From Pyrenophora tritici-repentis (lineage: Eukaryota > Ascomycota > Dothideomycetes > Pleosporales > Pleosporaceae): a DNA stretch of 64,000 nt. Positions 21,936-42,789 of this stretch are shown here, piece by piece; within the stretch, counting starts at the first letter, position 1, and each line of letters begins with the position of its first letter. Location: positions 4,712,001 through 4,776,000 of the forward strand of contig NC_089391.1 of the NCBI RefSeq assembly GCF_003171515.1, given 5' to 3'. The position numbers and the translations under genes are program-made. Under the pieces are notes generated by a model. That model made no database searches. It saw only the letters and a program-made list of their open reading frames with translations, and was not told the origin of the DNA.

Positions 21936-22335
21936 GTGATGGCGTGGTGGTAGCGTTGGGAGGTGTCGACAGGGGTGGATTCGTGTAGGGATGGTTCGGG
22001 GATGGTTCGGGTGTGTGAGATTTAATGTAAGACGATTAGCAGGCCTTCGGCGATTATTACTATGAGATATACGCGGAAATATGTAGTATTAATCAAAATT
22101 TATGTCGGCAATTGCGTCGTGAGTCTGGCTGGGTACCGTTCCCCCAAAATCATCCGCGAACCGAGAATTTCACCGCAGACCCCTCCCACATCAAAATCGC
22201 TACCCCACTCCCATCCTCAACGCTCCTACCCCTCTGCCCACAAAGCCCTCGCCCCCCACTGTGTTTTACTCTCCGATATATTTCTATTAACCCTAAATTT
22301 CTCCATCAAATTACAAGCCCAGGTTTCCTGGACCA
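21936..22335. other. Gene-free upstream region of the tRNA-Tyr gene
   Basis: Between a protein gene and the tRNA-Tyr gene. C-rich around 22190-22260. Small open frames at 22062-22411 run into the tRNA and are not coding. Confidence 0.5.
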
Positions 22336-22477
22336 CTCCGCTTGGTGTAGTTGGTGTACGTTCTATTCCCTCTACCACACTCACAACAACATCAGTCTAA
22401 CATTCATCTAGTTATCACGTTCGACTGTAATAGCAATTGTTATCGAAAGGTCCCTAGTTCGATTCTGGGAGCGGAGA
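22336..22477 (+). tRNA. tRNA-Tyr (anticodon GTA) with two insertions
   Basis: A perfect 7-bp acceptor stem pairs 22336-22342 (CTCCGCT) with 22470-22476 (AGCGGAG); discriminator A is 22477. Positions 8-9 and the A-box-like word TGGTGTAGTTGG follow. The D stem is GTG (22345-22347) with CAC (22416-22418). The anticodon stem TTCGA (22420-22424) pairs perfectly with TCGAA (22443-22447); the loop carries GTA at 22427-22429, so tyrosine. The T arm CCTAG-TTCGATT-CTGGG (22453-22469) is intact and holds the B box. A short intron (22431-22441, 11 nt) sits after position 37, as all eukaryotic tRNA-Tyr genes require. A second, 56-nt insertion (22356-22411) interrupts the D-loop. Without it the D-arm cannot be joined to the anticodon arm; without both the tRNA has about 75 nt. 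Confidence 0.85.
22356..22411 (+). other. GT-AG intron-like insertion in the D-loop of tRNA-Tyr
   Basis: Lies directly after the invariant GG of the D-loop. It begins GTACGTTC, ends CTAACATTCATCTAG and is 56 nt long: donor, CTAAC branch site, 10-nt spacing and TAG acceptor match the spliceosomal introns of protein genes in this window (for example the CDC73 intron). It is pyrimidine-rich and lacks the Pol III stop (no T run of four or more), so Pol III could read through it. tRNA-splicing endonuclease normally cuts only at the anticodon, so its removal would need another route. Confidence 0.75.
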
Positions 22478-22489
22478 ACAGCTACAATC

Positions 22490-22496
22490 TTTTTTT
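22490..22496 (+). terminator. Pol III terminator of tRNA-Tyr
   Basis: Run of seven T beginning 13 bases after the discriminator base of the tRNA-Tyr gene. Confidence 0.75.
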
Positions 22497-22885: not shown

Positions 22886-22974
22886 GGCTTCGTGGCGCAA
22901 TGGTAGCGCGTCAGATTCCAGTACCCACCACTGGAGCTTCCTGAAGGTTAGGCGTTCAAATCGCCTCGAGGTCA
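22886..22974 (+). tRNA. tRNA-Trp (anticodon CCA) with anticodon intron
   Basis: Acceptor GGCTTCG (22886-22892) pairs with CGAGGTC (22967-22973), with two G-T pairs; discriminator A 22974. D arm GCGC-AATGGTA-GCGC matches the Trp consensus, T arm is AGGCG-TTCAAAT-CGCCT. The anticodon loop is TTCCAG, so CCA and tryptophan. After position 37 an intron of about 17 nt follows (TACCCACCACTGGAGCT); its CTGGA can pair with TCCAG of the anticodon loop, the usual pre-tRNA-Trp fold. The anticodon stem TCAGA/CCTGA has an A-C mismatch next to the loop. Confidence 0.88.
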
Positions 22975-41705: not shown

Positions 41706-42789
41706 CTAACCCTTGTTCTTAAATTCCAAGCCACTTTCCTTCCTCACAACTCCATACACGCTAGGAATGTCACCCCGGTCTCCAAGCTCACTCTTCACAC
41801 CGTCCAGTCTCTTCTGTGCCAATCCAAGCATCTTCATACTCTCCTTGGCGCCATTGCTCTCTGCAAGCGACATGGCATGTCGAGCATCCTTCCTCGCAAG
41901 ATCAACATGGAACAAGGGCTCCTCGCGCTTATAGTAGTCGCCATCCAGCATACGCTGAGAGTAAGCTGTATAAGGACCTGGGAACATGGTGGAGATGAAG
42001 GTGTGAAGGTTATCGACTCCCAGCCCAGACTTCTCTGCCAAAACATGGCCTTCAGAGAGCTGAGAGACCATGTTTAGGATAAAGGTGTTGCCAATTACTT
42101 TCATGAGGGTGGCATTTCCAGCGGGCTGGCCCGAGTAGTCGATGTTTGCTCGGCCCATGACGCCGGTTGTGTATGGAACGACTCTGTCGCATGAAGCCTT
42201 TTGTCCTGCCGTCACACAGACAAGCTGCCCGTTGTCGGCCATGGCTGGGGCGCCAAATACTGTAATCATGTTAGTGATGGTCGAGATATCCACTACCCTA
42301 TGAGAGCTTGACGTACCAGGCATGCCCACGAATCCAGCACCTTTATCTGTGATTCGCTTATCCAGTGCATTGGTTGTATCCGGATGCACAGTTGAGCAGT
42401 CCACAATCAGCTTGCCATTCACATCTTCCTGGAGCATTGCATCAACGGCCGAGTTGACGGCAGCGTCGTCACCGAGACACATGAAGATGATACCGGCCGC
42501 CTTGACAGCATCATTGACAGTGTCGACAACTTTGGTTTTGGAAGTGCCGAGCTTGGAGGAGAGATCTTCGGCCCGGGACTTTGTGCGGTTGTAGATGATG
42601 AGAGGCTTATCAAGTTGGCCCTTCTCTACCAAATTCTATATTTTAAGTCAACCATCTGATCGATTGGTCCAAGGCTGCTCCATACTTTGCACATGCCCTG
42701 TTACAGTCAGCATTATGGTTGACCTGATGATGGGGCGTACTGGCCCTGCCCATGTTGCCGAGGCCAATCCAAGCGAGTTGTGGAGCCAT
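41706..42789 (-). CDS. 3-hydroxyisobutyrate/6-phosphogluconate dehydrogenase-like NAD(P)-binding protein; 5' joins problematic
   Basis: ATG 42789 opens MAPQLAWIGLGNMGR, the GxGxxG nucleotide-binding motif of this superfamily. Two well-supported exons follow, 42635-42317 and 42259-41706 (57-nt intron), giving NLVEKGQLDKPLIIYNRT, IIFMCLGDD, LIVDCSTVHPDTTNALD, FVGMPVFGAPAMADNGQLV, the substrate-loop area MKVIGNTFILNMVSQLSEGH and GLGVDNLHTF. Between exon 1 and 42635 the only GT-AG path uses donor 42740 and a 12-nt micro-exon (42697-42686, GMCK). It matches the family but lands one base out of frame. Either a base is in error, the splice donor is not GT, or the gene is damaged. The family reduces small hydroxy acids or acts on related carbonyls; the substrate is unknown. 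Confidence 0.72.

Follow-up and report, generated by a model that had tools for sequence, protein, structure and literature searches.

Introns of nuclear tRNA genes are taught as a world separate from that of spliceosomal introns, with one position and one endonuclease. Introns of the mRNA type also occur in U6 snRNA genes of fungi other than fission yeast, and spliceosomal introns are known in ascomycete rRNA genes. In fission yeast the U6 snRNA gene has a U2-type, mRNA-type intron that is removed by the spliceosome and for which an origin by reverse splicing has been proposed, as described in passages of PMC10484740. This is a close likeness to the tRNA-Tyr gene considered here, which also appears to have a U2-type intron inside a Pol III transcript. 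Reverse splicing into U6 is easy to picture because U6 sits in the heart of the spliceosome; tRNAs do not, and the interruptions here affect at least 13 genes, which represent nine isoacceptors, at eight positions. The best U6 match in the fungus's own genome extends over 99 nt, covering the full model, and has no intron. The rRNA genes likewise offer U2-type introns in a non-coding structural RNA (an mRNA-type intron of 18S is cited in the reference list of PMC11782384), but they give a Pol I transcript and belong to another RNA class.

A second relevant group comprises the ectopic introns and permuted tRNA genes of Cyanidioschyzon, nucleomorphs, and archaea, in which introns lie outside position 37/38, the D loop included. 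Passages of PMC3978253 assign these introns to the bulge-helix-bulge (BHB)/tRNA endonuclease type, many of the nucleomorph ones without a clear BHB, and, unlike the inserts described below, name neither GT-AG ends nor a branch motif for them. Introner-like elements, responsible for recent intron gains, are described from the same fungal class, the Dothideomycetes (PMC4457414, in part); they differ from the present case in that the available text of that article lacks the word tRNA and in that most of the tRNA insert cores reported here are mutually dissimilar. No earlier report of spliceosomal introns in tRNA genes was found in open-licence full text, a scope outside which subscription papers and preprints mostly fall. 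There was none in the passages of PMC13149111, PMC3903604, PMC7177214, PMC4835772, PMC4494063, and PMC2784804 that came up, the word tRNA does not occur in the corresponding text of PMC9860276, and the stem spliceosom- is absent from the accessible text of the tRNAscan-SE 2.0 paper (PMC8450103). Novelty is thus likely rather than proven, and what is new would be the union of mRNA-type introns in Pol III genes, as in U6, with ectopic tRNA introns, each of them a known kind.

The tRNA-Tyr(GTA) gene lies in a 64,000-nt stretch of the genome of Pyrenophora tritici-repentis, a wheat-infecting fungus (Dothideomycetes, Pleosporales); the stretch is referred to here as the window. One protein encoded in the window shares 98% identity, across 95% of its length, with a protein recorded from this species. 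The reading preferred here, with a probability of about 0.9, is that this nuclear tRNA-Tyr gene is functional, that its insert is a U2-type spliceosomal intron, and that the fungus has many tRNA genes of this sort. It is preferred because it best accounts, taken together, for the common signals, the narrow range of lengths, the sites found empty in paralogues, the conservation of the exons, and the want of any other tRNA-Tyr found.

The tRNA-Tyr gene and its copies

The gene occupies positions 22336-22477 on the plus strand of the window and has two interruptions; it was recognized from the sequence, by reading by eye, and by ARAGORN on the joined form. Exon 1 (22336-22355) supplies the 5' strand of the acceptor stem and positions 8-20, with the A box at about 22343-22354. 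Next comes a 56-nt GT-AG insert between tRNA positions 20 and 20a (22356-22411), which is read as a U2-type spliceosomal intron: GTACGT stands at the 5' splice site (22356-22361), the branch-site motif CTAAC at 22397-22401, with 22400 the probable branch A, and TAG at the 3' splice site (22409-22411). The first part of exon 2 (22412-22430) comprises the remainder of the D arm, the 5' strand of the anticodon stem, the anticodon GTA (22427-22429), and A37. It is followed by an ordinary 11-nt tRNA intron at 37/38 (22431-22441, a boundary uncertain by 1-2 bases) and by exon 3 (22442-22477), which contains the 3' strand of the anticodon stem, the T arm, the 3' strand of the acceptor stem, and A73, with the B box at about 22457-22465. 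The A and B boxes are intact, and a T7 run of the Pol III terminator type is present at 22490-22496. Upstream of the gene are a TATA element (22277-22280) and, 27 nt farther 3', a CATCAA motif (22304-22309) that probably marks the region of the transcript start. A tRNA-Trp(CCA) gene with an ordinary 17-nt 37/38 intron lies on the same strand at 22886-22974, 408 bases 3' of tRNA-Tyr.

A first-pass annotation had described the insert as a spliceosomal-type GT-AG intron whose removal restores the cloverleaf. Its coordinates and motifs (GTACGT, CTAAC, CTAG, the 11-nt intron, and T7) are correct, and removal of 22356-22411 does leave a complete tRNA-Tyr. Read by eye, the joined form has an acceptor stem of seven pairs (CTCCGCT/AGCGGAG) with C1-G72 and A73, an anticodon stem TTCGA/TCGAA, and a T stem CCTAG/CTGGG with one G-U pair. 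When introns are allowed, ARAGORN identifies the joined sequence as tRNA-Tyr(gta), its intron being 11 nt long, and takes the unjoined one for Ser(act) with a 54-nt intron; neither the Rfam tRNA model at its gathering score nor a first ARAGORN run reported the window gene.

The number of tRNA-Tyr(GTA) genes in the genome, and whether all carry the insert, was a question the annotation had raised. In the 40.9 Mb of genome searched (41 contigs), three were found, on three contigs, all three interrupted at the identical D-loop site, which puts the insert far from a chance occurrence. The second (C1:481706-481846) and third (C6:1078647-1078799), both on the minus strand, were recovered by similarity to the window gene. 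The three copies agree at every base of exon 1 and of the 66 nt 3' of the insert, 86 nt in all, with the 11-nt 37/38 intron counted among them. The inserts measure 56, 54, and 54 nt, begin with GTACGT, GTACGT, and GTAAGT, and each contain CTAAC and end in TAG; between these splice signals their cores are no more similar than shuffled sequence, with fractions of 0.11, 0.40, and 0.20 of 500 shuffled pairs scoring equally high.

No uninterrupted tRNA-Tyr was found: a query with the joined exons (E<=10) against the fungus's own genome returned these three loci only, in a loose first look that a very divergent copy could escape. Eukaryotes cannot do without tRNA-Tyr, so cells have to excise the insert, barring a very different tRNA-Tyr that the search overlooked. 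Patterns for the T arm and anticodon arm of tRNA-Tyr gave no match in either viral_contigs or genome_contigs (two scans each) and so brought up no relatives. The 13-mer AGYNGGTGTRNGT is not enriched in the fungus's own genome (102 matches, against 210 for the reversed control); tRNA-Tyr was the sole tRNA among the 30 loci read of the 102, and two further tRNA-Tyr genes are among the other 72. One candidate (L076), which ARAGORN reports as a Tyr gene whose intron lies at 33, was rejected; it reads as Arg(TCT) with a 37/38 intron and has neither C1-G72 nor A73.

Other interrupted tRNA genes

Further tRNA genes were sought by patterns for the T arm, a region remote from the inserts. None of the inserts was discovered through a search for splice motifs: one is that of the first-pass annotation, two were reached via similarity to it, and ten via T-arm patterns. 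The pattern GGGTTCRANYCCC has 35 matches, 32 of them nuclear, and all 32 were read, giving 31 tRNA genes and one locus (L144) that was rejected as a tRNA by eye and by scanner. Seven of these 31 nuclear genes, the one sample fully read, are interrupted by a GT-AG insert: Asp(GTC) (L026), Glu(CTC) (L137), Glu(TTC) (L129), two Ala(CGC) (L147 and L148), Leu(CAA) (L149), and Pro(CGG) (L142). Six of the ten nuclear matches to CGGTTCRANYCCG were read: a locus (L154) rejected on the same grounds as L144, and five tRNA genes, of which a single one, Gln(CTG) (L150), is interrupted. The count from SAGTTCRANTCTS rests on eight of its 41 nuclear matches, examined singly; six are tRNA loci already in the set, and two more, picked for a Ser-like T arm, are both Ser(AGA) and both interrupted (L155 and L156). 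L155, on the minus strand, lies directly 3' of a tRNA-Ser(GCT)-like 3' end, forming a tandem pair.

The total is 13 interrupted tRNA genes of nine isoacceptors, scattered across the genome, the three tRNA-Tyr genes and ten others, and the signals seen in tRNA-Tyr recur in the ten, which supports the spliceosomal reading of the annotation. In 40 other nuclear tRNA genes ARAGORN, scanner, or reading by eye showed no insert outside 37/38. For another isolate of P. tritici-repentis, PMC3538342 gives 129 tRNA genes.

Uninterrupted copies exist for Glu(CTC), Gln(CTG), Ser(AGA), and Asp, and could be held to supply the cell's tRNAs if the interrupted genes were dead copies hit by introns, an option that the annotation had entertained. 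For tRNA-Tyr and Leu(CAA), however, no uninterrupted gene was found in the fungus's own genome. Dead copies would decay in exons and splice signals alike, so it also tells against this option that exons are identical between the Tyr copies and between the Ser copies, and that the Ala copies are identical outside the insert in all but the 37/38 intron; in all three sets the cores have drifted, to shuffle-level similarity, and the splice signals are kept. With all three tRNA-Tyr genes and ten further genes interrupted, death of the copies is a highly improbable general explanation. Single members may nevertheless be dead, given that the interrupted Asp(GTC) is a divergent single copy whose insert starts with GTTCGT, beside four ordinary tRNA-Asp genes, and that one Ser(AGA) insert ends in AAG. 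Once joined, the Ala genes show by eye the G3-U70 pair, the identity mark of alanine.

Unjoined, seven of the 13 interrupted genes receive no call from ARAGORN, five another isotype, and one the same isotype; joined, 12 of 13 receive the isotype read by eye. The thirteenth, the joined Gln gene, is called Lys(ctt), and Gln(CTG) is read from stem pairing and from the two uninterrupted copies. A deletion scan with ARAGORN is too permissive to single out the GT-AG frame, since the number of deletion positions that yield a call of some kind ranges from 9 to 76 per gene.

Repeats were also encountered in these searches. Two families of near-identical tRNA-like repeats, of 84 nt (L085-L088) and 97 nt (L107, L113, L120, and L124), are probably SINEs; in the tRNA search, 19 copies of the first family each have a score of 46.1 bits, and ARAGORN calls this family Arg(tct). 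For P. tritici-repentis, PMC3538342 describes a SINE whose head resembles tRNA-Ser(GCT). Another repeat ends in the T-arm-like sequence GGTTCGATTCCCAACA (L104-L106, L108-L111, L114, L116-L119, L122, L125, L127, L128, L130, and L132); its copies are often paired about 5,500 bases apart, as if they were terminal repeats of a 5.5-kb element.

Signals, positions, and origin of the inserts

All 13 inserts are 51-63 nt long. Their starts are GTACGT (five), GTAAGT (four), GTAAGC (two), GTGAGT, and GTTCGT (one each), so that GTRNGY fits 12 of 13; the ends are CAG (seven), TAG (five), and the single AAG, YAG in 12 of 13. The branch motif is CTAAY throughout (CTAAC in ten, CTAAT in three), with the 3' end 10-13 nt after the branch A. 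In 20,000 shuffles of each whole insert, GT, AG, and CTAAY at the observed 10-13 nt never occurred together, the branch window having been set after the inserts were seen. When the ends were held fixed and only the core was shuffled, a placed CTAAY arose at a frequency of 0.009-0.033 per insert. Borders were set by hand in the nine inserts that have no empty paralogue, so that the GT and AG ends there are partly a matter of choice; CTAAY is not.

In the remaining four genes, Glu(CTC), Gln(CTG), and the two Ser(AGA), the insert is defined by uninterrupted paralogues with the empty site (L138 for Glu, L151 and L153 for Gln, and L078 for Ser). Deletion of the insert yields 30-nt identity with the paralogue in two to four frames, and the GT-AG frame is among them in all four. 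By our own numbering, inserts lie at 8/9 in Glu(CTC), 10/11 in Ala, 11/12 in Gln, 13/14 in Ser and Glu(TTC), 15/16 in Leu, 20/20a in Tyr, 20/21 in Pro, and 30/31 in Asp; these eight positions are all in the 5' half of the tRNA, and none of the 13 inserts is at the ordinary 37/38 site.

The annotation's remark that the insert has the length of local protein-gene introns holds: the range of the 13 tRNA inserts compares with one of 45-57 nt for six introns of window protein genes, which were located using nothing but GT, AG, and the best agreement with a homologue. A seventh, the first intron of the gene at 41706-42789, is ambiguous and was left out of the set. The six start with GTGCGT, GTATGT, GTGCGT, GTAAGC, GTATGC, and GTACGT, conforming to GTRNGY, and have CTRAY (by eye) and YAG; the protein introns also use CTGAY as a branch motif, whereas the tRNA inserts use only CTAAY. 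Judged by these features, the tRNA inserts are introns of the same kind.

A rival reading makes the inserts ectopic tRNA introns that tRNA endonuclease excises at a BHB, as in Cyanidioschyzon, nucleomorphs, and archaea; BHB-type introns at the D loop and other sites elsewhere give it a precedent (PMC3978253). GT-AG ends and CTAAY are unneeded for BHB splicing, yet they are present in all 13 inserts, and the lengths match those of protein introns. When the insert ends were tested for a BHB, none of the 13 beat its own shuffles at P<0.05 (lowest values 0.07 and 0.10), in a test made weak by the low scores that two ordinary control introns from this genome also received. Cutting of these inserts by the endonuclease is regarded as very improbable. 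The self-splicing classes do not match either: the ribozyme core of group I and group II introns measures hundreds of nucleotides, and the inserts are 51-63 nt in length.

Most insert cores are dissimilar to each other. Among the 78 pairs that the 13 inserts form, the best is that of Glu(CTC) L137 and Leu(CAA) L149 (z 5.0, with 200 shuffles for each pair), and the next pairs reach z <=3.6; this gives a weak hint that the two introns share an origin and are perhaps copies of one intron.

Transcription, processing, and meaning for the fungus

CATCAA lies 6 to 37 nt 5' of many of the tRNA genes read, with TATA about 27 nt farther upstream, and the pair has the appearance of a strong start module for Pol III. 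Within 60 nt upstream, CATCAA is found in eight of the nine interrupted genes for which 60 nt or more of upstream sequence is available, versus 24 of 40 uninterrupted genes; where both elements are present, TATA stands 25-30 nt before CATCAA in every one of the 10 interrupted genes and in 15 of the 16 uninterrupted ones, though a TATA may be present by chance. The position of this module matters for the Ala, Gln, Ser, Leu, and both Glu genes, because there the intron splits the A box (8-19); a start fixed by TATA/CATCAA would not depend on the A box. Downstream, T5-T7 follows within 13 nt in 11 of the 13 interrupted genes; the flank available for the other two is 10 nt (Gln) and 0 nt (one Ser). 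TTTT is absent from all 13 inserts, which would fit Pol III transcription.

Splicing is normally coupled to Pol II, and the annotation had allowed for a tRNA transcribed by Pol II. The interrupted genes would in that case form parts of longer RNAs that undergo normal splicing, the tRNA then being cut out or not made at all. Against this stand the TATA/CATCAA modules and T-run terminators, which most interrupted genes have just as uninterrupted tRNA genes do, and the precedent of a spliced Pol III transcript in fission-yeast U6 (PMC10484740, in part). Transcription by Pol II is considered very unlikely.

On the spliceosomal reading, Pol III would transcribe the Tyr gene from the TATA/CATCAA start module to the T run. 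The GT-AG intron would probably be removed first, by the spliceosome, because an RNA whose D arm, acceptor junction, or anticodon stem contains an insert cannot adopt the tRNA fold. The spliced RNA could then fold and have its ends trimmed, and the 37/38 intron, where present, would be removed by tRNA endonuclease and ligase, to give a mature tRNA. Two unrelated splicing machines would thus act on one RNA.

If this is true, the division between tRNA introns and spliceosomal introns is broken, and the spliceosome is active on short, probably uncapped Pol III transcripts. The genes would also provide clean cases of intron gain or loss, with tightly constrained exons and empty-site paralogues in the same genome. 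Most interrupted genes are missed or misnamed by ARAGORN and Rfam, the two finders tried, and the tRNA sets of such fungi may therefore be wrong. For P. tritici-repentis it seems fairly probable that possibly as many as a quarter of the nuclear tRNA genes, all those for tRNA-Tyr included, depend on the spliceosome; tRNA genes would then be live targets of intron gain and Pol III transcripts regular substrates of splicing, several tRNAs would be spliced by two machines, and the capacity for translation would be tied to spliceosome activity.
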